Below are positions 388-61,589 of a DNA stretch of 64,000 nucleotides, one piece after another (within the stretch, counting starts at the first letter, position 1; every line of letters begins with the position of its first letter). The position numbers and the translations under genes are program-made. Origin of the DNA: a virus; the IMG/VR virus record IMGVR_UViG_3300022602_000038, positions 1-64,000 of that record. One strand, 5' to 3'. The notes beneath the pieces were generated by a model. It was given only the letters and a program-made list of their open reading frames with translations. It was not told the origin of the DNA and did not search any database.

Positions 388-1188
388 TTAGTTTTTACTA
401 TTGCTCTTAAAGTGCCACAAACCCTGCTTTTCGCCTTTGTAAATAAGCTGGATAACTGCTTCATCTACAGCGGCTCGCACTGCTACGTTACCGGATTCGT
501 TGTTCGCGAATCCAAACTCTCCTTCAGAATATTTTGTACCATTGGAGTACCAACTCATTAAGTTGCCGTTTACATTCACAGAAAATACAGTTTTGGTAGT
601 TGTAACACTCAATAATACTTCCGATGTGCTGACACTTACTAACCTTAAGGAAACAGTGACAACGTCTTTACTGTATTGCTGCTGTGCACCAATATTGAGT
701 ACATTAGCCCCGACACCGCCTGTAATTACATCTGAATCCCACCCAATAATACCCCCTTCTACTAATACCCCTGCAAACAACAAAGGAAGCATTCCTGGAG
801 ATTTAGTATTTTCAAACTCTTCACGGCTTTGTCGGTACATTTGACGCTCTTTTACTATGTCATCAAGCCCTGTACGCTCTAATACCTTAAAGTAACAACC
901 ATTACCCGCTAACTGTAAACTTTCTACCAGGTACGACTCGGCACCCTGTGTAACTGCAGAACTAAACAGAGCTAAGTTGTTTGATGTTTTACGTTGTCCG
1001 GTCTTGTCTTCAAGCTTGTAAACAGCTACAGTCATTTGAGGGGCGTCTAAAGCTGGTAAAATCTTTAATTGCTTTGATAAAGGACTTTCCTGTACAACGG
1101 GAGCATCTTGCATATCATAAGGATGACGGGCAAGCTTATAAGTCTGACATCCTGTTAATAGTAAACAAAGTAATAAAACGTATTTCAT
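388..1188 (-). CDS. csgG: CsgG-like curli secretion pore lipoprotein
   Basis: 266 residues, against 277 in E. coli CsgG. The N-terminus is a lipoprotein signal with lipobox LLTGC (Cys14). Family blocks visible are VYKLEDKTGQ, FKVLERTGLDDIVKER, VEGGIIGWDSDVITGGVGA, NIGAQQQY, VSLRLVSVSTSEVLLSV and KGEKQGLWHF. CsgG forms a nonameric outer-membrane channel that secretes curlin. The start ATG overlaps the csgF stop (TAATG at 1190-1186), so the two are probably translationally coupled. The gene is full length with intact family motifs and shows no sign of decay. Confidence 0.92.
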   Translation of the reverse strand: MKYVLLLCLLLTGCQTYKLARHPYDMQDAPVVQESPLSKQLKILPALDAPQMTVAVYKLEDKTGQRKTSNNLALFSSAVTQGAESYLVESLQLAGNGCYFKVLERTGLDDIVKERQMYRQSREEFENTKSPGMLPLLFAGVLVEGGIIGWDSDVITGGVGANVLNIGAQQQYSKDVVTVSLRLVSVSTSEVLLSVTTTKTVFSVNVNGNLMSWYSNGTKYSEGEFGFANNESGNVAVRAAVDEAVIQLIYKGEKQGLWHFKSNSKN

Positions 1189-1646
1189 TAACCACCCCCT
1201 GTACCTGCAGTTAATAATGTACCAACCGGTATTTGAATAGATGTTGTTGTGTTGGTAGCTGGGTCGTAAATCTGTAATGTAGCAATGCCTTTATTCTCCA
1301 CCCAATTAACAGTAGCACCAGAAGGTAGGTTAAACGTACCCTGTGTTGCAGTAGTAGAAAATAACTGCGAAGTTAAGTTAGCTGCTATTTGAGAATAAAC
1401 ACGTGCCTGTAAACCGCTAATGAATTGATTAATAGGAGTGTTTTGTGCAGCAGCTGCAGCTGTACTTGCTGCTGCTTCTTTTTGAGCAATAATAGTTTGC
1501 TGTCTATTGTAACCGGTGTTTTCTAAAGTTAACTCGTAGCCAGAAAATGACCCGTTAGTTTGGAAAGCTGATGACTTAAATGCGAAAGTCTGTTGTGTTG
1601 CGTTGGCAAGACTTGCCATAAATGCTAATAATAGCAGGTATTTCAT
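1188..1646 (-). CDS. csgF: CsgF-like curli assembly factor
   Basis: 152 residues with a Sec signal peptide (MKYLLLLAFMASLANA). The mature N-terminus (TQQTFAFKSSAFQ, then NGSF) matches the CsgF segment that inserts into the CsgG channel (TMTFQFRNPNFGG in E. coli). The C-terminal part, with NWVENKGIATLQIYDPATNTTTSIQIPVG, parallels the CsgF C-terminal beta domain ([21 protein letters not shown]). An Ala-rich helix near residues 58-68 is longer than in E. coli. csgF leads the csgF-csgG-curlin operon, and a CTAAATA late-type box lies 5 nt upstream of its ATG. Confidence 0.88.
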   Translation of the reverse strand: MKYLLLLAFMASLANATQQTFAFKSSAFQTNGSFSGYELTLENTGYNRQQTIIAQKEAAASTAAAAAQNTPINQFISGLQARVYSQIAANLTSQLFSTTATQGTFNLPSGATVNWVENKGIATLQIYDPATNTTTSIQIPVGTLLTAGTGGG

Positions 1647-1672: not shown

Positions 1673-1864
1673 ATGAACGAAGCATTTGTCAAAACCTTAC
1701 CCGTATACTTCCCTTCCAAAGACTTTATGACAGTTCTTAAGCCAGACAATAAAATCTTATTGACTGATATACCAGCAAGCAAATTACGCTCTAAACAGAA
1801 CCAAATGTACGTGTTAGCTGATACTTCTGAGGGCTCAGTGCTTGTACCAGTAGATAATGGCTAA
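1673..1864 (+). CDS. Hypothetical small protein
   Basis: 63 residues with no family I recognise. It is mixed polar/hydrophobic with no signal peptide or membrane segment. The TAAGTA box 7 nt upstream and the 8-bp overlap with the next start (1857) suggest a real gene, first in a rightward pair with the cyclic-nucleotide-binding protein. Confidence 0.6.
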   Translation: MNEAFVKTLPVYFPSKDFMTVLKPDNKILLTDIPASKLRSKQNQMYVLADTSEGSVLVPVDNG

Positions 1865-2498
1865 GAAACTAAAAGTTAAATTTGAAGAGATTCAAGCATC
1901 TGCTTTATTTGCTGGTGTACCGCCTAAAATTATAAAGAAGATTGCTACCTTTCCACGCGCTCAAGAACACCCGGCCGGTGATGTTATTATTAAAGAAGGT
2001 GATATTGGAGAATTCATGTTTGTAGTTCTATCCGGGCAGGTTGATGTCGTTAAACAAGCAGGAGATAAGGAAGTGTTTCTTGCAACCTTGCCACCGGGAG
2101 TGTTCGTTGGAGAAGGAGCTTTAGTGTCTGGTGCACCACGTAACGCTACTGTTAAAGCTAAAACACCTGTTAAGATTGCATACTTTGATAGGCAAGCTTA
2201 TAATAAAATGATAATGGCTGATCCAGCTATTAGTGCAACGCTAATGAAAGTACATAAAGAGCGCTGTAAAGATCAAATTAAAAAAGTTAATATAGCTAAA
2301 TCAAAAGCATTTTTAATATCAGGAGCAGTAGCTTTGATTCCAATGATACAATCTTTCTTAGTACCTCACTTAGGAGCATTATCTAGTCATATACCACCAG
2401 GTTTATTAGCAATGATTGGGCCTGCAGGTGCGGCGTTAGCCTTTAAATTTCAACAATCTGATATGGCTGGTTTAGCTGGTAAGTTTGATAAAATGTAA
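1857..2498 (+). CDS. Cyclic-nucleotide-binding domain protein with hydrophobic C-terminus
   Basis: 213 residues. Residues 15-125 form a CRP/PKA-type cNMP-binding domain: GDVIIKEGDIGEFMFVVLSGQVDVV strands followed by a phosphate-binding-cassette-like GEGALVSGAPRNAT (85-98) that keeps the Glu86 and Arg95 which normally contact the nucleotide. There is no helix-turn-helix, so it is not a CRP-type regulator. Residues 150-197 are instead hydrophobic (AFLISGAVALIPMIQSFLVP and a second segment), suggesting membrane association. In a phage this could sense host cAMP or c-di-AMP, or be a virion component that uses only the fold. The domain call is firm and the role unknown. Confidence 0.75.
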   Translation: MAKKLKVKFEEIQASALFAGVPPKIIKKIATFPRAQEHPAGDVIIKEGDIGEFMFVVLSGQVDVVKQAGDKEVFLATLPPGVFVGEGALVSGAPRNATVKAKTPVKIAYFDRQAYNKMIMADPAISATLMKVHKERCKDQIKKVNIAKSKAFLISGAVALIPMIQSFLVPHLGALSSHIPPGLLAMIGPAGAALAFKFQQSDMAGLAGKFDKM

Positions 2499-2840: not shown

Positions 2841-3887
2841 ATGAAAAACAGCTCTGACATTAAATCTATTCAGAATTTCTTACCAGAAGATATTCTGAAT
2901 AAAATTGATGATCAAATTATTAAAAATCGTTGGGGGTATGGGTGGAAATCAGATACTACTATTGCATTCGGACATTGGCATATAGAATATAATTTGTCTC
3001 CTGAAAGAAGTATTAATGAAAATGCATTAGGTATTGAAGAATACGTGCCCCCTATACTACTTGAAGCATGGAATTATATTAAAACAAACCATTTACCTGA
3101 TTATAGGTTAATCCGTTGCTATTGTAATGCGCACACTTTCGGAACAGAAGGTCACCCACATTATGATTCTAACAGAGATGGAGATAGAACAGTTGTAATT
3201 TACCTTAATAAAAAATGGGACTGCTCTATGGGTGGTGAAACAATGTTTTACGAAGATAATAGAGAAGAAGTTATACATGCAGAGCTTCCTAAAAGAAATA
3301 AAGCAGTTATATTTCCTGGTAATATATTACACACTGCTACTGGAGTAGCGAGATTATGTCCAGACTTACGAATGACATTAATGTTTAAAGCAGTAGCGCC
3401 TGAATATTTTGATAAAGATAGAGATACATTACAATTATTCTTACAAGCAAAAGGTACACATTTAATTAAACATAGTGCTACTACATTTTGCGGGCATTTA
3501 CTACGTACATATGACCTATTAAAGAAGTATGGTATGAATAAAGATGTTTGTTTAGCTGGCGGTTTGCACTCCATATTTGGAACAAATGCATTCAAGCAAG
3601 TAACTGTACCTTTAGAAGAAAAAAATAAATTAATAGATTTGTTTGGAGAAAAAGCTGTACACTTAGCAGAATTGTTTTCTAAAATTGACCGTCCAAGAAC
3701 ATTGGAGCGTATATTAGTAAATCCGGTTTCTTTCTTAACAGATCCGCAAGGTAATAAAATAGATGTAACTGAACAGGAAATACAAGATTTAATTGCTATA
3801 GAATGCGTGAATCTATATGATCAAAAAAGTTTAAACTATTGGACTCACTTAACTAAACGCGGTAAAGAAATATTTAAAAATAATTAA
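2841..3887 (+). CDS. 2OG-Fe(II) oxygenase fused to a DUF6817-like domain
   Basis: 348 residues. Residues 85-190 are a prolyl-4-hydroxylase-type double-stranded beta-helix: the iron ligands are H107-Y-D109 and H164 (NILHTATG), and Arg in LRMTLMFKAV is the likely 2OG-binding residue. GGETMFYED is also typical. Residues 195-340 resemble DUF6817 (CGHLLRTYDLLKKYG, AGGLHSIFGTNAF), an HD-like helical domain. Oxidative hydroxylation is the expected reaction and the substrate is unknown. The two-domain fusion is worth noting. It follows the 2552 gene by 7 nt. Confidence 0.8.
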   Translation: MKNSSDIKSIQNFLPEDILNKIDDQIIKNRWGYGWKSDTTIAFGHWHIEYNLSPERSINENALGIEEYVPPILLEAWNYIKTNHLPDYRLIRCYCNAHTFGTEGHPHYDSNRDGDRTVVIYLNKKWDCSMGGETMFYEDNREEVIHAELPKRNKAVIFPGNILHTATGVARLCPDLRMTLMFKAVAPEYFDKDRDTLQLFLQAKGTHLIKHSATTFCGHLLRTYDLLKKYGMNKDVCLAGGLHSIFGTNAFKQVTVPLEEKNKLIDLFGEKAVHLAELFSKIDRPRTLERILVNPVSFLTDPQGNKIDVTEQEIQDLIAIECVNLYDQKSLNYWTHLTKRGKEIFKNN

Positions 3888-3962
3888 TCCTTTGTTAAAA
3901 GAAAACAATAATTAGCTTAAAAAACAAGTTAAAAACTCCTAAGTAATTATACTTAACATATT

Positions 3963-4445
3963 ATGTCCTACATCTACAACAACGCCCTTTATAGTACCAC
4001 AGGTGGTAATGGTTTTTATTCGCTGTCTTCAGCCAATGGTGAAATTGTTACAACCAATAACAACACTTTCACTGCAGCATATAATGTTTGTGGTAATGGT
4101 TATAATCAAGCTGATTTTACAGTAAATGGTACTACAGTTAAGCCAACTTCTGCTTACACATTTACAGTAAACAAGTATAATAATGGTACATTAGTTACAC
4201 CAAACAGCTCAACAACTTATACGATTACAGTAAGCTCAACTAATGCTATTCCTATGGCATTACTTCTTAATCCAGCAAACGCTGTATTTAATAATTTACA
4301 GCATGCTACATTAGCTGTTGCGTATAGCATTCCAGCAAGTGCAAATGGACTAGGTACAACTTCAATTAGCGTTGATTTAAGTGCTGCTACAGTGGATTTC
4401 TCAGACCCAGAAAGACGTCGTTTACACAACCTTGGTTATCTATAA
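3963..4445 (+). CDS. Hypothetical Ser/Thr/Asn-rich beta protein, possible virion protein
   Basis: 160 residues rich in Ser, Thr, Asn and Gly with alternating beta-strand patterns and no signal peptide. An Ig-like segment (NGTTVKPTSAYTFTVNKYNNGT) is followed by DFSDPERRRLHNLGYL at the C-terminus. Composition resembles phage head or tail decoration proteins. A TAAGTA box (3940-3945) lies upstream and a strong terminator follows. No family identified. Confidence 0.6.
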   Translation: MSYIYNNALYSTTGGNGFYSLSSANGEIVTTNNNTFTAAYNVCGNGYNQADFTVNGTTVKPTSAYTFTVNKYNNGTLVTPNSSTTYTITVSSTNAIPMALLLNPANAVFNNLQHATLAVAYSIPASANGLGTTSISVDLSAATVDFSDPERRRLHNLGYL

Positions 4446-4465
4446 TAGATTAAACTGAATTATAT

Positions 4466-4495
4466 AAAAAGCCGTTGAAAAACGGCTTTTTTTAT
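4466..4495 (+). terminator. Rho-independent terminator
   Basis: AAAAGCCGTT-gaaa-AACGGCTTTTTTT: GC-containing stem with T-run, 20 bp after the stop at 4445. Confidence 0.85.
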
Positions 4496-4510
4496 CTTAT
4501 TATACTTTTT

Positions 4511-4915
4511 ATGAAACACTTCATCTCAATATTATTGTTAACGTTTTTTATAACAGGTTGTGTATCTACTAAAACATTAGTAGATGGAGTGCTTGGAAGA
4601 TATCCTCATTATGATGCCTTAGAGTATGATAGAGCAGTACAAGTAGAAATAATTGCAAAAGACTTAGAAGTACATTCTAATAGACTAGATGAGTTGATAA
4701 CTAATATAGAAGCGTTAAAGCTTTACGTAGCAGGTCGTCCTTATAATGAGCGTATCAGTAAACAGGTAGAATTATTAGACAAAGTAGTCAAAGAATTACA
4801 ACTTAGAGAGCAAAAAGGTATAACAATAAGTAAAGCTTACTATAAGATTAAGTGGGAGGATATAGTTAAGCTATCCGACAACATACGTAAGTCTATTGGT
4901 ATAGAAAAATTATAA
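4511..4915 (+). CDS. Small lipoprotein with coiled-coil region
   Basis: 134 residues from ATG 4511. A longer reading from 4475 would begin inside the preceding terminator and was rejected because MKHFISILLLTFFITGC is a clean lipoprotein signal with lipobox ITGC. The mature part is charged and mostly helical (EIIAKDLEVHSNRLDELITNIEALKLYV, KQVELLDKVVKELQLREQ, written in parts), so probably a periplasmic helical lipoprotein. An o-spanin role is possible but there is no i-spanin partner beside it. Confidence 0.7.
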   Translation: MKHFISILLLTFFITGCVSTKTLVDGVLGRYPHYDALEYDRAVQVEIIAKDLEVHSNRLDELITNIEALKLYVAGRPYNERISKQVELLDKVVKELQLREQKGITISKAYYKIKWEDIVKLSDNIRKSIGIEKL

Positions 4916-4923: not shown

Positions 4924-5184
4924 ATGGCTACAGCAACAACATTATTAAAACAACTATCTCCTTTTAGCGATAATAGTAACAGTACCATCGCTGAATGTGC
5001 AGGCAAAATTGCCTCTTATGCAAAGCAAGTACAATCTGGTGACTTAACGCTTGATGAATTTAAGGAGCTTTCTTCTGATTTAGACGCTCTTAAAGAATCA
5101 GCAACAGCTGCTGACGAAGTACAAAACGTACAAGCTATAAATGATATATTTAATGGCTTAGTTGCTATATTAAGTAAGGTATAA
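4924..5184 (+). CDS. Hypothetical helical protein
   Basis: 86 residues, acidic and predicted all-helical from its heptad-like Leu/Ala spacing, no Trp, one Cys. It follows the lipoprotein by 8 bp and is preceded by an exact TATAAATA. No family recognised; possibly a small virion protein given the late promoter. Confidence 0.65.
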   Translation: MATATTLLKQLSPFSDNSNSTIAECAGKIASYAKQVQSGDLTLDEFKELSSDLDALKESATAADEVQNVQAINDIFNGLVAILSKV

Positions 5185-5504: not shown

Positions 5505-5563
5505 TATCTTCTGTTGCTGAAAAGTAACAAAGTGGTGGAGGTGAAGCAGTTTAAGACTGCTGA

Positions 5564-5593
5564 AAAGCTTTGGCGTAAGTCAAAGCTTTTTTT
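5564..5593 (+). terminator. Rho-independent terminator
   Basis: AAAGCTTTG-gcgtaagt-CAAAGCTTTTTTT. A small GCAGT-ttaag-ACTGC hairpin lies directly upstream (5547-5561). Confidence 0.8.
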
Positions 5594-5674: not shown

Positions 5675-5682
5675 TATAAATA
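5675..5682 (+). promoter_or_regulatory. Exact T4-type late promoter TATAAATA
   Basis: TATAAATA ends 7 nt before the autotransporter ATG at 5690, downstream of two terminator-like hairpins, so the gene is probably an independent late transcript. Confidence 0.6.
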
Positions 5683-5689
5683 TAGTGGT

Positions 5690-8023
5690 ATGAATAAATT
5701 ATTAAAACTAATCGCATTAACTATATTGACGTTTGCAGTTAGTACTTCACTTGTAGCGAGTGGCAGCTCGCCAACAGTTGTTAGTACAACAAACGGTACA
5801 CCAATAGTAACCGTAACAACTACTCCAGTAGATGTAGTTGCAACTAACGCTTACGGTTTCTCTATTGATAATACATATGTTAATACAACTACCACGACAA
5901 TCCCTACTACAGTCACTTTATATAGTGATAATAGTTCAGTAACAACAAACGGCTCGCCAGTTGTCACTGTAAACCATGGTACAGTACCAGTACAGACTGT
6001 CACAACAGGTAATGTTACTACAACATCAACAGCACCTCGCACTGTTACATCAACAGCTAATGGTGCTACTATTGCTACAACATATCTTGATACAGTAACA
6101 ACAATTACACCGACAACCTGGACAACTGTTAACGGAGCAACAACATCTGTAACAGGCAACGCTGTCGTAACTACCACACCAGCAGTAACACCTTCTACAG
6201 TTGCTACTACGACTAATGCAGTAGCTGTAACTACATCAAACGGAACACCTATCGTAACATTAGCTAATTCATATGCCCCTGTTACTACTACAAGTGGTGG
6301 TTCAACTATTGTTACTACTAACTTAAACGTATTAACAACTACAACAGTTCCAGTTGCTACTACTACAGTGACGACGCCGATGACTGTTATTGCAGATAGT
6401 ACAGGTAATACTATTAGTACAGTATACGGTACACCAACATCTAATACAAATGTGTCATTTGCAATTTCAACAGCTAATAGCTCTTCTCTTTATACAGTAG
6501 CTACTACATCTAACCAAACATCTACAGTTACTAAAAACGGTACCGCGGTAGTTGGTGCTACTATTGCTTATTCAACTGCTAATAGCGTTGATGCAAGTAA
6601 TAATCCGGTTGTTAAGACTTATAAGTTAACAACTACAACAACTACTACTCCAGTAGATACAGCTACAACAGTTACACCTGTTACCGTTACTAAAGATGCT
6701 AATGGTAATCTTATTAGTACATATTACGGTGCACCAACAACTACGGATAATGTAGTTAACAATGCAGTTGTTACAACAGCTAATGCTTTATATAGCACAG
6801 CTACAACAACCCAGAACGTTGCTAATCAAACAGTATTTGGTAACCCAACAACCACATATGCAAGTGTAAATGGTACAGCTGCTTCTACTACTGCTTATTC
6901 GCAAGCTAAGGCAAAGTCAGCTGATGCTAAAGTGTTAAACATCGCTAAGACGACTACAGTTACTACTGTTACACCGGTAACAACAACAGCTACAACAGTT
7001 ACCCCTGTTACCAATGTAACTACTAATACAGCTGTTACTACTACAGTATATGCTGATGGCACTACACCAACATTAGTTACATATAGTGCTCCAGTAGTTA
7101 CGGAGAATACTTCAGTATCGACAGCTAAGATCGTTACTACTGGTAACTCTACAGCAGTAACAAGTTCAGTAGCTAATTACGGTACTCGTATCGATCAATA
7201 TTCATACCTACAGGCTGCAAGCCGTCGTTATAATATGCTTGTTGATTCTAACCCATTAGATCGCAACTACGGCGGTACTTGGAACGCTAATAAGAGTGAT
7301 GGTTGGAACTCTTATCTAACTTATACACGTACAAGCAGCAATACAGTTGATACATATAAGACTTCAAGCAACACATTCACTATTGGTGCTGAGTCGTTTG
7401 TAACTGCTGACGTATTATTCGGTATTAAGTACGATTTCGTTAATGCTAATATTAACGGTGATCAAGCTACTGGTACATTACAAAAACATCACTTAGGTCT
7501 ATATAACTTAACCACGTTCAACAATCTATTAGTATTAAAGTCTGATCTTGGTTTTGCTTATGACCGTTTTGCTAATACCCATACATTAGCTGCTTTAAAC
7601 TACGCTAATGCTGGTAAGGGTAATGGTAAAGACATTTGGTTAAATGAGCGTTTATATTCAAAGAGCTACTTTGGTTTTGCGCCTTTCATAGGTGGTCGTT
7701 TCGAAACAAGCTCACTAGATGCTATTGCTGAAACAGGCGATGCTTATACAGCTCAATCATTTGATGCTGCTAAAGTAACCCGCGCTGCAGCAGAAGGTGG
7801 CTTACGCTTTGATTATCAGTTCGGTGATGCTTTCAGAGTTATTGCTGAAGGTGGTTACCTAACACCTACTAAGTCAAAGGGTATTGATGGTATTACGTCA
7901 TACAAGCTTAACTTGCAAGCTACACCAACAAAGACCATCTCTGGTACTATTGGCGCCGGTCAGCAAAAACAAGCAACGTTAACTGATACTAACCTAACAG
8001 CTGACGTTACATTTAAGTTCTAA
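5690..8023 (+). CDS. Autotransporter-type outer-membrane protein with Thr/Val-rich passenger
   Basis: 777 residues. Residues 1-24 are a Sec signal peptide (MNKLLKLIALTILTFAVSTSLVA). Residues 25-490 are a low-complexity passenger dominated by VTT, TTTVTPVT and NGTPIV units, compatible with a beta-solenoid or extended stalk. Residues 495-777 look like an autotransporter beta-barrel: YLQAASRRYNMLVDSN, GGTWNANKSDGWNSYLTYTR, alternating aromatic strands, and a C-terminal strand ADVTFKF ending in Phe, the usual Bam recognition signal. The host Bam machinery would insert it. It has its own late promoter and terminator. Possible roles are superinfection exclusion, adhesion or masking of receptors. 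The fold call is strong and the role is inference. Confidence 0.8.
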   Translation: MNKLLKLIALTILTFAVSTSLVASGSSPTVVSTTNGTPIVTVTTTPVDVVATNAYGFSIDNTYVNTTTTTIPTTVTLYSDNSSVTTNGSPVVTVNHGTVPVQTVTTGNVTTTSTAPRTVTSTANGATIATTYLDTVTTITPTTWTTVNGATTSVTGNAVVTTTPAVTPSTVATTTNAVAVTTSNGTPIVTLANSYAPVTTTSGGSTIVTTNLNVLTTTTVPVATTTVTTPMTVIADSTGNTISTVYGTPTSNTNVSFAISTANSSSLYTVATTSNQTSTVTKNGTAVVGATIAYSTANSVDASNNPVVKTYKLTTTTTTTPVDTATTVTPVTVTKDANGNLISTYYGAPTTTDNVVNNAVVTTANALYSTATTTQNVANQTVFGNPTTTYASVNGTAASTTAYSQAKAKSADAKVLNIAKTTTVTTVTPVTTTATTVTPVTNVTTNTAVTTTVYADGTTPTLVTYSAPVVTENTSVSTAKIVTTGNSTAVTSSVANYGTRIDQYSYLQAASRRYNMLVDSNPLDRNYGGTWNANKSDGWNSYLTYTRTSSNTVDTYKTSSNTFTIGAESFVTADVLFGIKYDFVNANINGDQATGTLQKHHLGLYNLTTFNNLLVLKSDLGFAYDRFANTHTLAALNYANAGKGNGKDIWLNERLYSKSYFGFAPFIGGRFETSSLDAIAETGDAYTAQSFDAAKVTRAAAEGGLRFDYQFGDAFRVIAEGGYLTPTKSKGIDGITSYKLNLQATPTKTISGTIGAGQQKQATLTDTNLTADVTFKF

Positions 8024-8045: not shown

Positions 8046-8074
8046 AAAGGCTCTAGAAATAGAGCCTTTTTTTA
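8046..8074 (+). terminator. Rho-independent terminator
   Basis: AAAGGCTCT-agaa-ATAGAGCCTTTTTTT just after the autotransporter gene. Confidence 0.88.
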
Positions 8075-51658: not shown

Positions 51659-53677
51659 ATGTCCTCAGATACGCCTAACTATATTTATCCGCACGAGTTA
51701 CCGTCAGCAACTCCGCTACCTTATGATTTAATATATTTAGAACAGCCTAATTCAGACGGCACTTATTCTTCTTATAGTACTTCCCTTTCTGCACTTTCAG
51801 CGGCCGGGTTTGTTGGACCGCAAGGTGTTTCTGGTTATTCCGGTTATTCTGGTTTAGGTCTATCTGGTTATTCTGGTTTTAGTGGTTTTAGTGGTTCCGG
51901 GGTTTCTGGTTATAGTGGTTATAGCGGGCAACCCGGTGCAGGAGCTGCTTCTGGTTATTCCGGTATAAGCGGTTATTCTGGTATTTCTGGTTACTCAAGT
52001 TACTCTGGTTACTCTGGTATTTCAGGCTTTAGCGGTATTAGTGGTTATAGTGGTATAAGCGGTTATTCAGGTATTTCAGGCTTTAGTGGTATTAGTGGTT
52101 ACTCCGGTTATAGTGGTATTTCTGGCTACAGTGGTTATTCAGGCTATAGCGGTATAAGTGGTTACGTTGGTATTTCAGGTTATAGCGGTATTAGTGGCTA
52201 CTCTGGTTATTCTGGCCAGTCAGGTTTTAGTGGTATAAGTGGTTGGTCTGGTTATTCTGGCTGGTCGGGCATTTCTGGTTATTCTGGTACTTCTGGCTAT
52301 AGTGGTTGGAGTGGGTACTCAGGTATTAGCGGTTATTCAGGCTTCTCTGGCTACAGCGGCTACAGCGGTATTTCTGGCTACTCAGGTTATTCTGGTCAAT
52401 CAGGTTTTAGTGGTATTAGTGGTTACAGTGGTACGAGTGGTTATAGTGGTACGAGTGGTTATAGCGGCACAAGCGGGTTTAGCGGTTGGTCCGGTATTTC
52501 AGGTTTCTCTGGAGTAGAACCTACATTTTCAAGTAATATAGTTGTTAATATTTCTGCAGGTTATTTCGGTCAATACTCTAACGGTATGACAATACCGGCA
52601 GCTGGCTTAACACCATCTCAAGTCATATTACTTGCTTGTCAACAACAAATACCTCCAACAGCTAGCATATCTTCTTCTACAACTATAGCATTTAATCAAA
52701 CTTCAATTAGTAACGTAATAAACTTTGGTTATACACTTAATAGTTTAGGAGCTACAGCTTTATCTGGTACATTATATTATAGAAGAAATAGTTCTGGTTC
52801 ATATGCAGTATTATTAAGCGGTACACCAGCAATATCTGCAACAAGTATGTCTTATACTCATACTTTAACAGATACGAATTATAATACTCAAAATTTTCAA
52901 TATCAATATACATTTGTAGATTCTAACAATCAATCTGCTACACCGGTTACAAAAACAATAACCCCTACATCTTATGTCAACCCTACTGTATCGTTGTCGG
53001 TAGTAGCAGCAAGCGGAACAACTTCTCCAGAAACAAACGCTTCAAGAGAATTAGGTAATATAGCTTCTACTATTACCGGTACTATAACTAATAACAATAA
53101 TAGCACATATGTACCATTAAGTGCATATGTACTACAATATAATGTTAATGGTGGTAGTTATACAAACTTAACTTCTGCAATATCAATAGGTCCTGGTACA
53201 TCATCAATGACCTCGTTTACACATAACGCTCCAACGTTAAGTGCTTCTACATCTATTGCATACCGTTTAGCAGTATACGACTCATATCAAAATTACATTT
53301 CAAGTAGTGTCGCGACTGGTACAAACACAGTAAACTTCTACACCTTAGTATGGTATGGACCTACTTCAGTGTTACCGGTCAATACAGCTAATATTAGAGC
53401 TTTACCTAGCAAATCATTTATAAGTGGTTTAGCTAATCCGTTTAACTTAGTAACAGGCACCACATACGACACGTTTACAGTTGCGTTCCCAAGCCCGCAT
53501 ACAATTACTCAAGTAATTGATACTGGTAACTTAAATGCTAATATTACTTCTAGTTATGTATTATCGGCTTGGAGCGTTAACAGTTATAACTTAGTACCTG
53601 TCACGTACAATGTATATACATTGTCTAACGCTACTCCATATTCACCATCGACTACACATCAAATTACGTGGTCTTAA
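51659..53677 (+). CDS. GYSG-repeat fibre protein 1
   Basis: 672 residues. N-terminal 55 residues (anchor-like, YIYPHELPSATPLPYDLIYL), then Gly-X-Ser triplets to about residue 286 (GYSGISGYSGYSG, with W, F, T or Q at X), then a beta-rich C-terminus of Ig-like or fibre domains (SNVINFGYTLNSLGATALSG; TYVPLSAYVLQYNVNGGSY). Triplet regularity implies a collagen-like trimeric shaft, though it lacks proline. Likely a tail fibre or head fibre; receptor binding would lie C-terminal. Confidence 0.72.
   Translation: MSSDTPNYIYPHELPSATPLPYDLIYLEQPNSDGTYSSYSTSLSALSAAGFVGPQGVSGYSGYSGLGLSGYSGFSGFSGSGVSGYSGYSGQPGAGAASGYSGISGYSGISGYSSYSGYSGISGFSGISGYSGISGYSGISGFSGISGYSGYSGISGYSGYSGYSGISGYVGISGYSGISGYSGYSGQSGFSGISGWSGYSGWSGISGYSGTSGYSGWSGYSGISGYSGFSGYSGYSGISGYSGYSGQSGFSGISGYSGTSGYSGTSGYSGTSGFSGWSGISGFSGVEPTFSSNIVVNISAGYFGQYSNGMTIPAAGLTPSQVILLACQQQIPPTASISSSTTIAFNQTSISNVINFGYTLNSLGATALSGTLYYRRNSSGSYAVLLSGTPAISATSMSYTHTLTDTNYNTQNFQYQYTFVDSNNQSATPVTKTITPTSYVNPTVSLSVVAASGTTSPETNASRELGNIASTITGTITNNNNSTYVPLSAYVLQYNVNGGSYTNLTSAISIGPGTSSMTSFTHNAPTLSASTSIAYRLAVYDSYQNYISSSVATGTNTVNFYTLVWYGPTSVLPVNTANIRALPSKSFISGLANPFNLVTGTTYDTFTVAFPSPHTITQVIDTGNLNANITSSYVLSAWSVNSYNLVPVTYNVYTLSNATPYSPSTTHQITWS
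51824..52515 (+). repeat. Gly-X-Ser triplet repeat tract 1
   Basis: 9-bp codon triplets GGT-TAT/TAC-TCN/AGY reiterated. Serine is written with both codon boxes and glycine mainly as GGT/GGC, so the protein repeat is conserved while DNA varies. Confidence 0.9.
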
Positions 53678-53683
53678 TAAATA
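53676..53683 (+). promoter_or_regulatory. Late-type promoter AATAAATA
   Basis: Ends 8 nt before ATG 53692. Confidence 0.45.
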
Positions 53684-53691
53684 TTTAAAAA

Positions 53692-55617
53692 ATGTCTTTA
53701 ACAACAGGCCTACAACTTCCATACGGTATACAACCAGTTGACCCACTACCGGTTGATACGTGGTCAGGTCCTTATACAGGCGCAACTGTTACAGCAGCAC
53801 TTTCAGCTGCAAATGCAACTATACCGTCTGGTGTAAGGTTCCAGTCCATGCAAGTACGGCTTATTGTAGCTGGTACACCTTATATATATTGGTACTATGC
53901 AGGTATAGCAGATACTAACTTAGTTTTATTTCCTGGTGTTAATGTACCTAATTTAACTAACGGTTCTTATACTTTTCAATTAAGTGCTACTGCTCTTTCT
54001 GGTGGTGCAATAATATGGCCTGATGGTACTGTACAATATACAGCTGCAACAGGTATATCTGGTTACTCAGGCTATTCAGGTACAAGTGGCTACTCTGGTA
54101 TAAGTGGTTATAGCGGTGTATCTGGTTACTCTGGTATAAGTGGTTATTCTAGCTACTCTGGTTATTCTGGTATCTCAGGATTTTCTGGCATAAGTGGTTA
54201 TAGCGGTTACTCTGGTATAAGCGGCTATAGTGGTTATTCAGGCATTTCAGGCTATTCTGGTACATCAGGTTATTCCGGTTATTCCGGTATATCAGGTTAT
54301 AGTGGGTTATCTGGTTTTAGTGGTATTTCAGGTTACAGCGGTATAAGTGGTTATTCTGGTTATTCCGGCTATAGCGGTATTTCCGGCTACTCAGGTTATT
54401 CTGGTCAGTCAGGTTTTAGTGGTATCTCTGGCTACTCAGGTATAAGTGGCTACTCTGGTTGGTCTGGTATTTCAGGTTATTCAGGCGTATCAGGTTATTC
54501 TGGTATATCTGGTTACAGTGGTTATTCTGGTATTTCCGGTTACTCAGGCATTTCTGGTTATAGTGGTTATTCAGGCATTTCTGGTTATTCAGGCATTTCC
54601 GGGTATAGCGGTATAAGTGGTTACTCCGGTTATAGCGGTATATCTGGCTATAGTGGTTACTCTGGTATATCTGGCTATAGCGGTATTTCAGGTTATTCAG
54701 GTATAAGTGGTTATTCAGGCTATAGTGGTATAAGCGGTTACTCTGGTATCTCTGGTTACAGTGGCTATAGCGGTGTATCAGGTTACTCTGGTATCTCTGG
54801 TTACAGTGGTTACTCAGGCATTAGTGGTTACAGCGGCATCTCTGGTTATAGTGGTATATCTGGTTACAGTGGTTACTCTGGTATTTCAGGTTACTCAGGT
54901 ATATCAGGCTTTAGCGGTATAAGCGGTTACTCTGGTATCTCTGGTTACAGTGGTACATCTATTAATATTTCTAGCCAGGTAATTACATATAGTAATTCAT
55001 TTAGCGCTGGACAAGTAGTACGTTTAGATAATACCGCTGGTAACTGGTATCTTGCAAAAGCAGATAACGCAACAGATGCTGAGTCTACTGGCGTGGTTCA
55101 ATCAGCTACATCTTCAAATTTCTTAATTGTATATGACGGTTTAATTACAGGTTTAACTGGCTTAACGCCAGGAGAATGTTATTATTTAAGTGATGTAACA
55201 GCTGGTGCTACTGTAACATATTCTCCAAGCGCGTACGGCACTGTTTCAAAACCGATTATGCGCGCTATTACTTCTACTACCGCATTAGTAGTTAATGAGC
55301 GTGGTATACAAAACTCTGCAGTTACTTCTTATAGAGTCCCAACAACATCAGTTTCTTTATCAGCATATACTGTACAAGCAAGTGACTATTATGTTGGAGT
55401 AAATTACAACGGATTAGCTTTAATTCAATTACCAGTAGGTATAACCGGTACAACTTATATTATTAAAGACGAGTCTGGTTTGTTAAATGGTACAACAAAT
55501 GCAATTACTGTATCTGCAACAACGCCAAATAGAATAGATGCTTTAACTCAGGCAAACTTAGTTGGACCACATGCATGTCTAACTCTTATATTTAACAATC
55601 AATGGAACTTAACATAA
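53692..55617 (+). CDS. GYSG-repeat fibre protein 2
   Basis: 641 residues. N-terminal domain 1-120 (VQYTAATGISG leads into the shaft), Gly-X-Ser shaft 121-422, C-terminal 425-641. The first part of that domain (SNSFSAGQVVRLDNTAGNWY, LITGLTGLTPGECYYLSD) is paralogous to a domain in the 56828 protein. The final part (YRVPTTSVSLSAYTVQASDY; TGTTYIIKDESGLLNGTT) resembles phage fibre/capsule-binding beta domains. No catalytic motif seen. Confidence 0.72.
   Translation: MSLTTGLQLPYGIQPVDPLPVDTWSGPYTGATVTAALSAANATIPSGVRFQSMQVRLIVAGTPYIYWYYAGIADTNLVLFPGVNVPNLTNGSYTFQLSATALSGGAIIWPDGTVQYTAATGISGYSGYSGTSGYSGISGYSGVSGYSGISGYSSYSGYSGISGFSGISGYSGYSGISGYSGYSGISGYSGTSGYSGYSGISGYSGLSGFSGISGYSGISGYSGYSGYSGISGYSGYSGQSGFSGISGYSGISGYSGWSGISGYSGVSGYSGISGYSGYSGISGYSGISGYSGYSGISGYSGISGYSGISGYSGYSGISGYSGYSGISGYSGISGYSGISGYSGYSGISGYSGISGYSGYSGVSGYSGISGYSGYSGISGYSGISGYSGISGYSGYSGISGYSGISGFSGISGYSGISGYSGTSINISSQVITYSNSFSAGQVVRLDNTAGNWYLAKADNATDAESTGVVQSATSSNFLIVYDGLITGLTGLTPGECYYLSDVTAGATVTYSPSAYGTVSKPIMRAITSTTALVVNERGIQNSAVTSYRVPTTSVSLSAYTVQASDYYVGVNYNGLALIQLPVGITGTTYIIKDESGLLNGTTNAITVSATTPNRIDALTQANLVGPHACLTLIFNNQWNLT
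54052..54957 (+). repeat. Gly-X-Ser triplet repeat tract 2
   Basis: About 300 residues of GYSGISGYSG units, mostly alternating Tyr and Ile at X. Confidence 0.9.
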
Positions 55618-55618
55618 A

Positions 55619-56818
55619 ATGAGTTATAACTATTTTCAAGAAACATTAGTACCTTCAACAAGTGCCTGGTCTATAGGTACAGTTAGCAGACCATTTAAAG
55701 ATATTTGGTTAGGTTACGGTTCTCTTAATTTAGCTAATGTTAATACAGGAGCATCTGGTATTGCGTTAGATAATACTAATAACATTCTTACATTAGCACA
55801 GGGCAGTGCAGGGTTTCAAATAATAGACCCGTACAGTAATACAATATTTCAAACTACAAGCGCAGGTCAGACTACATTATATACTTCCCAAGCTTCAGCT
55901 GGTACGTTAGGCGCTTTTGCAGTTGTTGGTAGCGGTAACCGTACTACACAAGTAGTAACTAACCCCGGTGTAATGTTTCATGTCACTGGTAACGATAATT
56001 TAAATAATCGTATAATATATGATGCTTTCGGTTCAAGTGGTAGTGTTAATGTATTCCCTCAACTTATTGGACGTAGTGCTAGAGGTTCAGCAACAACCCC
56101 TACAAATGTATTATCTGGAGATGTTCTTTTTAGAATAACAGCAAACGGGTATAATGCTTTAAGCGGCTTTACAAACCCATCTGGTGGTACTAGTAGCCCG
56201 TCAACTATAGAATGCGTAGCTACAGAGCCGTTTAGTGGTTCTTCTGTTGGTACAGAATGGCACATTTATAATGCTACAAAAGGAGATACATCAAATACAA
56301 AAACTCTTGATTTAATCATTAATGATAAAGGTGTAACAGTACCTGTAGCAAGCGCTGGCATTACATTTGGAGACGGATCATTTCAAAATACAGCATTTAA
56401 TGCAGTTTCCGGAACGTGGGTACCGCAATTATCTGCAGCAACAAACGGCACTGGGTTTAAGTATAATATGTCTAGTACTACAGGTAATTATTATAAAACC
56501 GGACGTAGTGTATTTGCAACATTTTCTATAGTTGTTTCATCTACAGACACCGCAAGCGGACAGGTATATTTGACTAATTTACCTTTTCCGGTAGTTAATG
56601 GTAGTGGTGTTTGGGGAACATTAAGCGTGTACCGGTACGGAAATATGTCTACATCTGTATCTCAAATAGAAGGTGGTAATGAAGGTAACGCACAAGACTT
56701 CACTTTATATTATCAAGATACTGGTCCTGGTGCAGGTGGCGTTAACGGTCTTACAGTAGCACAATTTACAAGTACATCCTTCTTATATGGATCTATGACT
56801 TACATCAGTCAAACCTAA
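55619..56818 (+). CDS. Fibre-associated protein without Gly-X-Ser shaft
   Basis: 399 residues. VPSTSAWSIGTVSRPFKDIW and QIIDPYSNTIFQTTSAGQTT are typical of phage fibre N-terminal/shaft segments, and ITFGDGSFQNTAFNAVSGTW then KYNMSSTTGNYYKTG matches the common C-terminal fibre knob layout. One bp gap after the 53692 gene. Possibly the distal fibre tip or a hinge. Confidence 0.65.
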   Translation: MSYNYFQETLVPSTSAWSIGTVSRPFKDIWLGYGSLNLANVNTGASGIALDNTNNILTLAQGSAGFQIIDPYSNTIFQTTSAGQTTLYTSQASAGTLGAFAVVGSGNRTTQVVTNPGVMFHVTGNDNLNNRIIYDAFGSSGSVNVFPQLIGRSARGSATTPTNVLSGDVLFRITANGYNALSGFTNPSGGTSSPSTIECVATEPFSGSSVGTEWHIYNATKGDTSNTKTLDLIINDKGVTVPVASAGITFGDGSFQNTAFNAVSGTWVPQLSAATNGTGFKYNMSSTTGNYYKTGRSVFATFSIVVSSTDTASGQVYLTNLPFPVVNGSGVWGTLSVYRYGNMSTSVSQIEGGNEGNAQDFTLYYQDTGPGAGGVNGLTVAQFTSTSFLYGSMTYISQT

Positions 56819-56821
56819 GTA
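56816..56821 (+). promoter_or_regulatory. Late-type promoter core (TAAGTA)
   Basis: CCTAAGTA overlaps the 55619 gene stop and ends 6 nt before ATG 56828. Confidence 0.4.
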
Positions 56822-56827
56822 TAATCA

Positions 56828-59800
56828 ATGAGTAACACTTTCGTATATCAAGCAGTTCAAGGACCAATAGGATTTTCTGGTACATCCGGATATTCTGGTT
56901 TCTCAGGTTTTTCTGGTTACTCAGGTATACCTGCAGTTGGTATAACATATTATTATACTAATAGTGCAGCAGATATAGCAGGCTATGATTACATGGCTAG
57001 TCAACCGGACTACGATCCGGAGGTATATTTTACAGCCACTGCACCAGCTAATTCAAGTATAAATCTATTACAGCAAATAACGCGTGTTTTAGATCCAGAT
57101 CAAACTACTATACCAGCAGGTACTTGGCAGTTTAATACGTATTATGTAACAGCAAGTGGTTCGAACCTATACATTGTTTATTACCTTTACGCTTATCATA
57201 CTGATACTACCTCTACATTATTATTTTCAGCTACAGGTGCAACATTAACCAATACAGTTTACCCACCTGCCCAACAAACAACGCGGTATACTATTAGTGC
57301 GCCTATTAACATTAATATTAATGATAGGTTTAAATTAATAGCAGCAGTATATAACCCTTCATTAACAACAAACTATTCTGTTTCAGCTTATTACGAAGGC
57401 ACTCAGCATTATAGTAATATTGCTACTGGTATATACGAAGGTGCTGTTGGTGCTTCTGGTATATCTGGTTACAGTGGTTATAGTGGAACAAGTGGTTACT
57501 CTGGTATAAGCGGTTATTCTGGTATATCAGGTTATAGTGGATACTCTGGTATATCAGGTTACTCCGGGTACAGCGGTATTTCTGGTTACAGTGGTTACAG
57601 TGGTATCTCAGGGTTTTCCGGTATAAGCGGTTATAGTAGTTATAGTGGTTACTCCGGTATAAGCGGTTATTCTGGTTATAGTGGTATTAGTGGGTACTCA
57701 GGCTATAGCGGTATTAGTGGCTACTCAGGTTATTCTGGTATCTCTGGTTATTCTGGCTATTCAGGTATAAGTGGTTATTCAGGCTATAGTGGTATTAGCG
57801 GCTACTCAGGCATTTCTGGTTATAGTGGTTATAGTGGTATTTCTGGCTATAGTGGGTATTCTGGTATAAGTGGCTATAGTGGTATAAGTGGTTATAGCGG
57901 TATTTCAGGTTACTCTAGCTATAGTGGTTATAGTGGTATTAGCGGTTATTCAGGTTATAGCGGCATTTCAGGCTACAGCGGTTATAGCGGTCAATCAGGC
58001 TTTAGTGGTATAAGTGGTTATTCCGGTATTTCAGGCTACAGCGGTTGGTCAGGTATTTCAGGTTACTCTGGTGCATCTGGTTATTCTGGTACGTCTGGTT
58101 ATTCTGGAGTTTCAGGTTATTCAGGCTATAGCGGTATAAGCGGTTTTAGTGGCTACTCTGGTTACTCTGGTCAATCAGGTTTTAGTGGAACCTCAGGCTA
58201 TTCTGGTTATTCCGGACAATCAGGTTTCAGTGGTTACTCAGGTATTTCCGGTTACTCTAGCTTCAGCGGTTATAGTGGTATATCAGGCTATAGTGGTATT
58301 AGTGGTTATAGTGGCTACTCTGGTATTTCAGGTTACAGCGGTATAAGCGGGTATAGTGGCTACTCAGGCTACTCAGGTATCTCCGGTTACAGTGGTATAA
58401 GTGGTTATTCTGGTTACTCCGGTATTTCTGGCTACTCAAGTTACTCCGGCTACTCTGGTATTTCAGGCTATAGCGGCATTAGTGGTTACTCTGGTATTTC
58501 TGGTTATAGCGGTTACAGTGGTTACAGTGGTATGTCTGGTTATAGCGGTTATTCAGGTATAAGTGGTTTTAGCGGTATATCAGGCTTTAGTGGTATCTCT
58601 GGTTACAGTGGTTACTCAGGCATTTCTGGTTACTCAGGCATATCTGGTTACTCTGGTTATAGCGGTACTTCCGGTTATTCTGGCCAATCAGGTTACTCGG
58701 GCTATAGTGGTTGGTCTGGGTTATCAGGCTACTCTGGTACATCTGGTTATAGCGGTTGGTCAGGTATTTCAGGTTACTCTGGTATAAGCGGTTATAGCGG
58801 TATTTCAGGCTACTCAGGTATATCAGGTTATAGCGGTTACTCTGGTCAATCTGGCTTTAGTGGTCAATCAGGATATTCAGGTTATAGTGGTTGGTCCGGT
58901 ATAAGTGGTTATTCTGGTACATCTGGCTATAGCGGTTTTAGTGGTATAAGTGGTTACTCTGGTATTTCCGGTTACTCCGGTATTAGCGGTTACTCAAGCT
59001 ATTCCGGTTATAGTGGTATATCAGGTTATTCTGGTTACTCAGGTATATCTGGTTACTCCGGTGTTAGTGGTTATTCTGGTTATAGTGGCTCTGGAGTTTC
59101 TGGTTATAGTGGTTGGTCGGGGTATTCCGGTACTGCTGCGCCATTACAACAAACTGTTACAGGTTATTCAAATTCCTTTACAGCTGGTCAAGTAATATAC
59201 AGAACTACAGGCGGTGCTTATGCTTTAGCTAAAGCAAATAATCCAGCTACTACAGATGCAATTGGTGTTGTGCAATACGCTGATTCAAATAACTTTACAT
59301 ATATCATTAACGGTTATATAACCGGTTTAACTGGTATAACAGACGGGGCTGAATATTACCTTTCAGATTCAACCGCCGGTTTAATGACCACTACAGTACC
59401 AACTGCAAGTGGTTCTCTTATTAAACCAATACTAATAGGTGTAGGTACAACAGCTGGTATTGTTGTAGAGTACCCACCAGTTATTATTAGCGGTATTAGT
59501 AATGGCACTAGCGGTTATTACGCAAAGTGGGTCGGTACAAACACAATCAATAACGGTTTAATTACCGATAACGGTTCAACTGTAACAATTTTAGGTAATT
59601 TATCAGCTACTGGTACAATATACGGAGTAGCAAGTGGTGGTTCTAATGCAGCTGCACCAGTGCCTTACTTAAGAGGCCGTCAAACAGCACTACAGGGTAT
59701 GTCATTAAGTGCTACAGTTGCATTTAATACTGCTGATGCAAATCTCGGTCAAGGTTATATTTCTCTTAATACTTCAACAGGTGTTATAACACTATCTGCT

Positions 59801-60856
59801 GGTTATACATATAGTTTAAGAGCAGAAGTACCCGCTGTATCAGCAAACCCAAGCGGTGGTAGTGTTTCGTTTGGTTGGGTTAATACAACTACAGGTACAC
59901 AAATTGGTAGTGTAAGTCCTTTATATGGAACTACAAGTAACGCTGCATATCTAGCTTTTGGCGGGGTAGCACAAGCTGTTATTACACCAGTAACAACTAC
60001 TAACGTAGCTTTACAATTATTATCTACTTCTATAAGCACTATTGGTATTAATGGTAATACAGATTTTAGTACTAATACAAACCCTTGGTTTGAAGTAGAA
60101 GTAGTAGGACTTGGCGGTGTTAGTGGGTATTCTGGTATCTCTGGTTATTCCGGCTACTCCGGTTATTCAGGTACGCCTGTTAAAACAGGTCTTTACTGGA
60201 GTAGTTTAGCAAACGGTAACCCTACTACTACGGGTGGTTCTCTCAGTTCTACTGGTGGGAATACAGTCTACAATAGTAGTAACTATGGTGTACAATTAAC
60301 GCCAGCTACAAGCAGTTATGCTGGTTTCGTTGTATGGAATGCTTCTAGTATAAACTATACAACAGATTTTACAGTACAGGCAAATCTTGCAAGTTTTGGT
60401 GGTTCAGGTGCAGACGGTCCATACCTTTTAATTGGTAGTGCATTAAGTGCTATACCAGGAGGTAACCCTACAGGCTCAACATTTACTGGTTTAAGTGCAA
60501 TCGCAACACATGTACATTTTTATAGTGGTGCAGAACAATTTGAATTATGCTGGAATGGTAACACTAACACGTTAAGTATTCCGTTTAACCCAGCGGGTCA
60601 AAATAGTAGTTCTGGTGGTGTAACAGTATATAATTCATCTGTAACAGCAGTTAGTGCAGCTACGTTCTATACATTAAAGTTAGAATTCAGAACAGTAGGT
60701 AGTAGCCGCTATATGGACTTCTATTTAAATAACAACTTACAAGGTAGTTATAATATAACTGGTTTTAATTTTGGTGGTACATATTGCGCTGTTGGTGCTT
60801 GGACGGGTGGATCTAATTCAATTAACTTTTGTAGAAGTTTCCGTATAGACCAGTAA
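56828..60856 (+). CDS. GYSG-repeat fibre protein 3 (longest)
   Basis: 1342 residues. Short GYSG stretch (16-36), beta domain 40-205 (related to the C-terminal part of the 62355 gene), long Gly-X-Ser shaft 210-767, domain 775-880 paralogous to that in the 53692 protein, another beta domain to 1090, short GYSG hinge, and a C-terminal 1110-1342 lectin-like jelly-roll (FVVWNASSINYTTDFTVQAN; MDFYLNNNLQGSYNITGFNF). Likely the main receptor-binding fibre. The shaft alone would be about 185 triplets. Confidence 0.75.
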   Translation: MSNTFVYQAVQGPIGFSGTSGYSGFSGFSGYSGIPAVGITYYYTNSAADIAGYDYMASQPDYDPEVYFTATAPANSSINLLQQITRVLDPDQTTIPAGTWQFNTYYVTASGSNLYIVYYLYAYHTDTTSTLLFSATGATLTNTVYPPAQQTTRYTISAPINININDRFKLIAAVYNPSLTTNYSVSAYYEGTQHYSNIATGIYEGAVGASGISGYSGYSGTSGYSGISGYSGISGYSGYSGISGYSGYSGISGYSGYSGISGFSGISGYSSYSGYSGISGYSGYSGISGYSGYSGISGYSGYSGISGYSGYSGISGYSGYSGISGYSGISGYSGYSGISGYSGYSGISGYSGISGYSGISGYSSYSGYSGISGYSGYSGISGYSGYSGQSGFSGISGYSGISGYSGWSGISGYSGASGYSGTSGYSGVSGYSGYSGISGFSGYSGYSGQSGFSGTSGYSGYSGQSGFSGYSGISGYSSFSGYSGISGYSGISGYSGYSGISGYSGISGYSGYSGYSGISGYSGISGYSGYSGISGYSSYSGYSGISGYSGISGYSGISGYSGYSGYSGMSGYSGYSGISGFSGISGFSGISGYSGYSGISGYSGISGYSGYSGTSGYSGQSGYSGYSGWSGLSGYSGTSGYSGWSGISGYSGISGYSGISGYSGISGYSGYSGQSGFSGQSGYSGYSGWSGISGYSGTSGYSGFSGISGYSGISGYSGISGYSSYSGYSGISGYSGYSGISGYSGVSGYSGYSGSGVSGYSGWSGYSGTAAPLQQTVTGYSNSFTAGQVIYRTTGGAYALAKANNPATTDAIGVVQYADSNNFTYIINGYITGLTGITDGAEYYLSDSTAGLMTTTVPTASGSLIKPILIGVGTTAGIVVEYPPVIISGISNGTSGYYAKWVGTNTINNGLITDNGSTVTILGNLSATGTIYGVASGGSNAAAPVPYLRGRQTALQGMSLSATVAFNTADANLGQGYISLNTSTGVITLSAGYTYSLRAEVPAVSANPSGGSVSFGWVNTTTGTQIGSVSPLYGTTSNAAYLAFGGVAQAVITPVTTTNVALQLLSTSISTIGINGNTDFSTNTNPWFEVEVVGLGGVSGYSGISGYSGYSGYSGTPVKTGLYWSSLANGNPTTTGGSLSSTGGNTVYNSSNYGVQLTPATSSYAGFVVWNASSINYTTDFTVQANLASFGGSGADGPYLLIGSALSAIPGGNPTGSTFTGLSAIATHVHFYSGAEQFELCWNGNTNTLSIPFNPAGQNSSSGGVTVYNSSVTAVSAATFYTLKLEFRTVGSSRYMDFYLNNNLQGSYNITGFNFGGTYCAVGAWTGGSNSINFCRSFRIDQ
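57457..59130 (+). repeat. Gly-X-Ser triplet repeat tract 3
   Basis: Longest tract, with occasional W, Q, F, T, V, A or M at X and periodic GYSSYSG variants. Confidence 0.9.
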
Positions 60857-60865
60857 AAATAATGT

Positions 60866-61558
60866 ATGTTACTACAAAATATTAGTTTAAATAATGTTGT
60901 GTTATATGAAACAACTAATATAACAGATACTATATTTGGGTCGTTAACTGCAACTAGTTCTATTTCAGCGTATAATGCAGCGTCAGTTAATAGTTGGGTT
61001 CAAGTTACAGGTGGAGAATATGCTAAAGTGCAAACTTTAATAGGCACTGTTACATATGGTATGTCTAATACTCAGTTTCTTGGTGCTCAAACTGGTAATT
61101 CATTTAATGCTACATTCTCTGTAGCTATGTCTTCTAATCCTAGTACTGCATTACCAACTGGAACTTATTTAATAGGTTTCGCTACTAGAAGTGGTGTAAC
61201 AAGTACAGCAGTAGTAGCATTCCCGTTAGTAGGACCATCTTATTTATCTGGTACATATACTAGCGTTGGTAGTGCAAGCTACACTACTCCTGGAACGATT
61301 TCTAATACTTATTTTGTAAGAAAAGCACCAACATCTTCTTTATCTGCTCCAAGTTATATTGCTTATGGCAATTACCCTACAAGTGCAAGTTATGCTTATT
61401 TAGCAACTGGTGCAACAACTTGGCCAAACATGGGTGGTTACGCTACTACAAGCTTTAATACAGATCATACTGCTGCATCTGCAATTGCACCTTTTACAAC
61501 CTACAATTCAAACTTACCGTTCTATCAAATGCTCGGTACAACTACAAAGACTTGGTGA
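60866..61558 (+). CDS. Hypothetical virion-like beta protein
   Basis: 230 residues, Ser/Thr/Ala-rich, beta-leaning, no repeats. C-terminal segment (PSYIAYGNYPTSASYAYLAT; PFYQMLGTTTKTW). It sits within the fibre cluster 9 bp after the long fibre and is likely a structural or fibre-associated protein. Confidence 0.6.
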   Translation: MLLQNISLNNVVLYETTNITDTIFGSLTATSSISAYNAASVNSWVQVTGGEYAKVQTLIGTVTYGMSNTQFLGAQTGNSFNATFSVAMSSNPSTALPTGTYLIGFATRSGVTSTAVVAFPLVGPSYLSGTYTSVGSASYTTPGTISNTYFVRKAPTSSLSAPSYIAYGNYPTSASYAYLATGATTWPNMGGYATTSFNTDHTAASAIAPFTTYNSNLPFYQMLGTTTKTW

Positions 61559-61574
61559 TAAAATCAATTTTTAC

Positions 61575-61582
61575 TATAAATA
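61575..61582 (+). promoter_or_regulatory. Exact T4-type late promoter TATAAATA
   Basis: Ends 7 nt before ATG 61590. Confidence 0.58.
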
Positions 61583-61589
61583 ATACGTA

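Follow-up and report, generated by a model that had tools for sequence, protein, structure and literature searches.

A predicted type Va autotransporter with a Thr/Val repeat stalk, encoded near curli genes in a T4-like phage

The window analysed here is a stretch of 64,000 nucleotides (positions 1 to 64,000 of IMG/VR virus record IMGVR_UViG_3300022602_000038), and the feature under study is an open reading frame (ORF) on its plus strand. The source record (G000; 140,720 b) is that of a T4-like freshwater phage, with genes for a T4-like DNA polymerase, a gp32-like protein, baseplate and terminase, and ARAGORN found three tRNAs in it. The following features were located at and around the ORF; G001, G002 and G006 are related phages.

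388 to 1188, minus strand: CsgG-type curli pore protein (PF03783, 6e-46)
1188 to 1646, minus strand: CsgF (PF10614, 5e-9)
1857 to 2498, plus strand: cyclic-nucleotide-binding domain protein (PF00027, 6e-21), kept beside csgF in G001 and G002
4511 to 4915, plus strand: lipoprotein-like ORF, with a similar ORF near the G006 autotransporter by eye
4924 to 5184, plus strand: 86-aa ORF with its own TATAAATA, again with a similar ORF near the G006 autotransporter by eye
5562 to 5591, plus strand: terminator-like hairpin closing the preceding transcript (13-pair stem, 4-nt loop, T tail)
5675 to 5682, plus strand: T4-late-type promoter TATAAATA, 7 nt before the ATG (word search)
5690 to 8023, plus strand: autotransporter ORF, 777 aa (sequence and translation)
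5690 to 5761, plus strand: putative Sec-type signal peptide, about aa 1-24 (by eye; helix at aa 2-19 in the model)
5762 to 7174, plus strand: passenger or stalk made of Thr/Val repeats of about 100 aa, aa 25-495 (composition; self-alignment against shuffles)
7196 to 7240, plus strand: predicted pore helix, aa 503-517 (residues 10-24 of the AlphaFold2 C-terminal model)
7307 to 8020, plus strand: predicted 12-stranded outer-membrane barrel, aa 540-777, final Phe (Pfam, model, structure comparison)
8046 to 8069, plus strand: hairpin resembling an intrinsic terminator, with a T run after it (hairpin search)

Elsewhere in the window, many ORFs between 20130 and 36472 terminate in, or are split internally by, a motif like VLKKGSEEAGIDIDI, and several start with MRxxYKxLxE; these repeated modules with a shared tag are perhaps packaging or cleavage signals. 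Several ORFs at 51659-61937, and at L009:2-1936, are made of GYSGISGYSG collagen-like repeats and are probably tail fibres.

The ORF starts with MNKLLKLIALTILTFAVSTSLVAS and ends in FKF. Its N-terminus looks by eye like a textbook Sec signal, and the helix there comes from the whole-ORF AlphaFold2 model. The passenger (32.1% T, 15.1% V) contains internal repeats beyond what composition gives: aligned with itself by Smith-Waterman it scored 472 (offset near 101), and 100 shuffles scored 303 +/- 18 (maximum 351). It matched no Pfam family. In the whole-ORF model, pLDDT was below 50 across most of aa 1-500, so the passenger structure is not confident and a beta-solenoid form of the stalk is not established.

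The C-terminus matched the autotransporter family PF03797 with 37.7 bits when trimmed and with 36.5 bits in a six-frame search (cut-off 26), the match being unreported by hmmscan of the whole ORF or of a slightly longer 284-aa trim. AlphaFold2 without templates placed one helix through the pore and 12 strands at the C-terminus (284 aa from aa 494, 20 relatives in the alignment, pLDDT 68, pTM 0.69, with the last strands falling below 50). When this model was compared with solved structures by VIA-align, the best 18 matches were all type Va autotransporter translocators, with Z scores of 27.9 for NalP (rmsd 2.6 over 260 residues, 13% identity), 27.5 for AaaA and 27.1 for EstA, against 16.2 for the first other fold or barrel. 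Foldseek of the whole-ORF model gave the same best matches, and 11 of the 12 with E <= 0.001 were autotransporters. Searches for the window protein in NCBIfam and, by sequence, in the PDB gave no match, and PHROGs gave none for its barrel. A single-chain C-terminal 12-strand barrel, a pore helix, an N-terminal passenger and a final aromatic residue are the features of type Va. The trimeric type Vc was rejected on the 12 strands in a single chain and the absence of PF03895 from the Pfam scans, and type Ve (intimin/invasin), with its N-terminal barrel, was rejected on the C-terminal position of the barrel. An earlier note, made from the letters alone, had proposed a phage-encoded autotransporter with a signal peptide, a Thr/Val passenger and a barrel ending in Phe, and had suggested barrel prediction as a check; sequence, Pfam and the structural model, which gives a barrel, together with the T4-like record, agree with it. 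On the models, ORF 5690-8023 codes for a genuine type Va autotransporter carried by a phage, with late display at the cell surface predicted.

The same note had given the gene its own late promoter and terminator, and both were recovered at 5675-5682 and 8046-8069. The word TATAAATA is the T4 late promoter word; with T4 geometry, the transcript of the autotransporter gene would presumably start about 2 nt before the ATG. It stands just before the start of 8 of the 142 ATG genes of the record (e.g. 4911, 5675, 15944, 44363 and 61575), the highest count among 56 letter permutations (median 1), of which those overlapping it, TAAATATA and ATAAATAT, score 7 each. Genome-wide it occurs 26 times, below the 39.7 expected from base composition, and it is therefore notable solely for its position at gene starts. 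It also precedes the autotransporter relatives in L004, L005 and G006, and is absent from the 70 b upstream of all 17 cyanophage autotransporter starts listed. Shine-Dalgarno-like words were found before just 5 of the 142 starts (first ATG taken, rough regular expression), and late mRNAs of the window phage may be almost leaderless. Two further genes with this word were observed. In L012 (15110-15649, minus strand; 139119-139445 of the source record), it ends 1 nt before the ATG of a PF07486 cell-wall hydrolase gene. In L010 (12333-13076, minus strand; 96333-97076 of the source record), it precedes a 247-aa ORF with a signal-like N-terminus and no Pfam or PHROG family, which is 92% identical in two related phages whose terminases are 76% identical, and which is possibly a second phage outer-membrane protein.

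Relatives of the protein formed a family of 88 ORFs on 87 contigs (after dropping 15 repeat fetches), found in this analysis only in uncultured phages, almost all cyanophage-like. The IMG/VR search confirmed 183 of 206 stretches, and as just 80 of the 183 were retained, the 88 ORFs are a sample. Among 50,697 curated phage records only two matched, the metagenome-assembled cyanophages DSL-LC03 and DSL-LC02. The final residue was Phe in all 87 ORFs closed at the 3' end, and the stalk was more similar to its relatives' stalks than all 100 shuffles in four of five comparisons, L056 being the exception. Genes for psbA, psbD or HLIP were present in 19 of the 87 contigs, counted on the fetched part, most of the others being short. 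L006 was rejected as a relative, being a terminase-linked ORF with one short motif in common. Two genome scans (A3, 26 stretches; A1, 114 stretches) gave no relative; since such scans depend on short patterns, hosts may carry the gene. One 4.9-kb contig (L031) holds two different autotransporter copies on opposite strands (3-1439, plus; 3759-4868, minus), which is either an assembly chimera or a true duplication.

The surroundings of the family were tabulated for the 57 ORFs whose upstream sequence reaches 750 b or more, leaving out L004, L005 and copies on the minus strand. In the 1.6 kb upstream, 51 of the 57 have a relative of phage lysozyme (gap to the autotransporter 57-740 b, median 142 b) and 48 a C39-like peptidase; both adjoin in 45 loci, at least one in 54, and neither in three (L056, L057, L087). 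On one upstream pair, Pfam gave PF00959 for the lysozyme and PF13529 for the C39 peptidase. This placement would suit a lysis factor that weakens or tethers the outer membrane as a spanin-like last step. Such a role is possible yet improbable, since the three loci named carry no such gene, the sole cell-wall hydrolase found in the window phage (PF07486, 139119-139445 of the source record) is not adjacent to the autotransporter, and variable heads (described below) would be left unexplained. The PF07486 hydrolase is also present in Melnitz and is absent from G001 and G002.

Comparison with G002 and G001 pointed to movement of the gene itself. The autotransporter of the window phage is 97.9% and 96.7% identical to theirs in amino acids, with differences at 52 of 481 and 51 of 476 4-fold sites (0.11), against 0.45 and 0.54 for terminase and 0.45 and 0.57 for csgG in the same phages, and the 300 b upstream of the gene are only 55-64% identical, i.e. 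unrelated. Together, the low divergence and the unrelated upstream DNA indicate that the gene was exchanged almost gene-precisely, and on the sequences the window-clade gene appears to have passed between phages. This bears on whether the gene is a host gene acquired by chance and carried as inert cargo. Its sparseness in the curated records would suit such a gene, but the 183 confirmed IMG/VR stretches, the conserved neighbourhood, the few amino-acid changes, the exchange between phages and the phage late promoter argue against it, and we regard it as very unlikely. Compared with G006, the window protein is 91% identical over aa 268-495, the later half of the stalk, and 43% over the barrel, which implies either recombination between the parts or very unequal rates of evolution.

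The N-terminal parts of the family showed a further kind of exchange. The 71 full-length proteins fell into six N-terminal classes, including a headless one, with one protein unplaced, and at least five unrelated heads sit on one barrel family. In the window clade (three proteins), which is headless, the repeats begin straight after the signal. Barrels 81-95% identical can bear first-200-aa stretches just 22-35% identical (barrel 87% and first 200 aa 22% for L013 and L025; 95% and 35% for L094 and L112). On a barrel tree made by a quick method, counting well-supported branches alone, four head classes underwent at least 5, 3, 2 and 2 changes. Heads have thus been swapped repeatedly on one barrel family. 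In type Va proteins the N-terminus is the far tip, so it is the variable part that faces the surroundings. None of the heads tested belonged to a confident known family, and a PDB sequence search of three heads gave nothing meaningful; one head had a sub-threshold match to Pfam CBM_4_9 (E 0.007, 17.2 bits against a cut-off of 25.9) and one a weak PHROG tail match (E 0.0044).

The tail match, and the fact that phage tail proteins also swap heads, would suit a virion component, that is, a tail or head adhesin merely resembling an autotransporter. This is very unlikely in view of the signal-like N-terminus, the complete translocator fold, the conserved final Phe and the absence of structural genes among the immediate neighbours in the window. 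A shield or exclusion device, in which a coat of stalk on late cells and debris would keep other phages, or the progeny of this one, from adsorbing, is a more serious alternative. The late promoter, the end-of-infection position after lysozyme and a headless Thr-rich stalk better kept than the barrel in G006 are consistent with it, but the swapped distal heads of the cyanophage proteins suit recognition rather than a passive coat, and no receptor is known. We consider a shield possible, though on balance unlikely. The roles put forward in the earlier note, exclusion and lysis timing, are candidates at most.

The gene lies 4.0 kb from the end of csgF to its ATG, and a link with these curli genes had been suggested from that proximity. 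In G001 and G002, csgGF and the cyclic-nucleotide-binding gene are arranged as in the window and the autotransporter is also present. In L004 and L005, csgGF and the cyclic-nucleotide-binding gene are kept near the autotransporter while the genes between differ, and a move of the autotransporter to unrelated places in these two was rejected on that retention. A repetitive Ala/Val/Pro protein of 354-355 aa (MANTIxSLAARLTAVE...; L004/L005; L131:1835-2899) stands directly before the autotransporter in G001, G002 and G006 and is absent before that of the window. Further support for the link came from L056, a contig whose genes (exonuclease phrog_255, phage oxygenase families) mark it as phage and where a curli operon holds the autotransporter. 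In one line, csgF and csgG are followed there by an ORF with curlin repeats (E 0.002, below cut-off), FecR and an ORF of 448 aa; after the autotransporter come a phosphoesterase, a glycosyltransferase (GT) and a CHASE2 ORF. With the neighbourhood conserved in three related phages and one operon in L056, the suggested association was upheld. In the window phage itself csgF and csgG were found, and its record stops short of the position at which curlin-like, FecR and cyclase genes lie in G002 and G006. The barrel was searched for in eight csgG-bearing records, which are partly related and so not independent, and was present in G000, G001, G002, G005 and G006 and absent from G007 (a 28.8-kb fragment), Melnitz and HTVC008M. 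Since the curli phages Melnitz and HTVC008M do without the gene, the autotransporter is not required for the curli module. Phage curli modules also accompany cyclic-nucleotide genes, with the cyclic-nucleotide-binding protein beside csgF in the window and CHASE2 plus adenylate/guanylate cyclase after FecR elsewhere (L132:2723-4777; L007; L008); a phage second-messenger circuit tied to the curli pore would be worth a look.

The reading that we prefer, with a probability of about 0.6, is that of a late-displayed, adhesin-like autotransporter forming a surface-remodelling set with the curli pore. A lytic T4-like phage would encode a classical type Va protein transcribed late from its own TATAAATA promoter; Sec would export it, BAM would insert the barrel in the outer membrane of the infected cell, and the 12-strand barrel would hold the long Thr/Val repeat stalk outside. 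From the predicted architecture we infer these steps, late transcription, export, insertion and display on the dying cell alike. Together with the curli pore about 4 kb away, the protein would make up a set whose likeliest job is to alter the adhesion of the dying cell and of its membrane debris, the stalk, with interchangeable heads in the cyanophage relatives, holding the cell as it bursts, or its progeny, close to new hosts. We slightly favour adhesion or capture over a shield because the tips recombine, curli genes accompany the autotransporter and lysis genes lie beside it in relatives. Because the relatives with swappable tips adjoin lysis genes in many freshwater cyanophages, these viruses seem to refit the surface of the infected cell shortly before it bursts. 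A broader and more doubtful proposal is that lytic freshwater phages share a recombining pool of type Va adhesins with swappable tips, deployed with curli-type pore and amyloid-like proteins minutes before lysis and gluing the bursting cell to the next hosts. If true, the shared adhesin pool and curli would be an extracellular capture organelle built by the virus.

Several known systems resemble the one described here. The csgF-csgG pair is common to the window phage and the curli modules of pelagimyophages (PMC7029224) and Melnitz (PMC9004378), and related phages have a related curli operon with FecR and cyclase. The pelagimyophage authors proposed "sibling capture" for phage curli genes, and the authors on Melnitz, who observed no clumping, put forward a role in lysis; the word autotransporter occurs in neither main text. 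The autotransporter would be a partner for these hitherto unexplained phage curli genes. In two further papers (PMC3909814, PMC11500664) autotransporters are mentioned just in passing, and searches of the open-access literature, which most subscription journals lie outside, gave no paper on a type Va autotransporter of lytic phages. N4-like viruses and cyanophages have YadA-anchor (trimeric) autotransporter proteins (PMC10654107, PMC9146016). These are, as here, phage genes with an autotransporter-type domain, but they are of type Vc (PF03895) and discussed as structural in cyanophages, whereas ours is a single-chain type Va protein. In the BFVD, three proteins of uncultured Caudovirales phages are already named "Autotransporter beta-domain containing protein". 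The DSL-LC03 and DSL-LC02 proteins share the barrel family (25-28% identity), the T-rich stalk and the final F with ours, and differ in their N-terminal heads and their position after lysozyme; the word autotransporter is absent from the DSL-LC paper text (PMC10611076). The closest likeness is to type Va autotransporters with 12-strand translocators (NalP, EstA, AaaA, EspP, AIDA-I), whose export signal (ours by eye), passenger, pore helix, barrel and final Phe are all matched. Compared with the NalP-type systems, the window protein is encoded by a lytic phage, has a Thr/Val passenger without a Pfam family and stands behind a late phage promoter. Surface proteins made by phages are familiar chiefly from prophages dressing the living lysogen, and the Eib proteins are prophage proteins. 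Here a lytic phage and a large family of relatives invest in a full secretion-and-display protein, predicted to be made shortly before the burst, whose tips are exchanged as they are in receptor-binding proteins. Being concrete and cloneable, it offers a way of asking whether the adhesion of dying cells and debris is engineered by phages.
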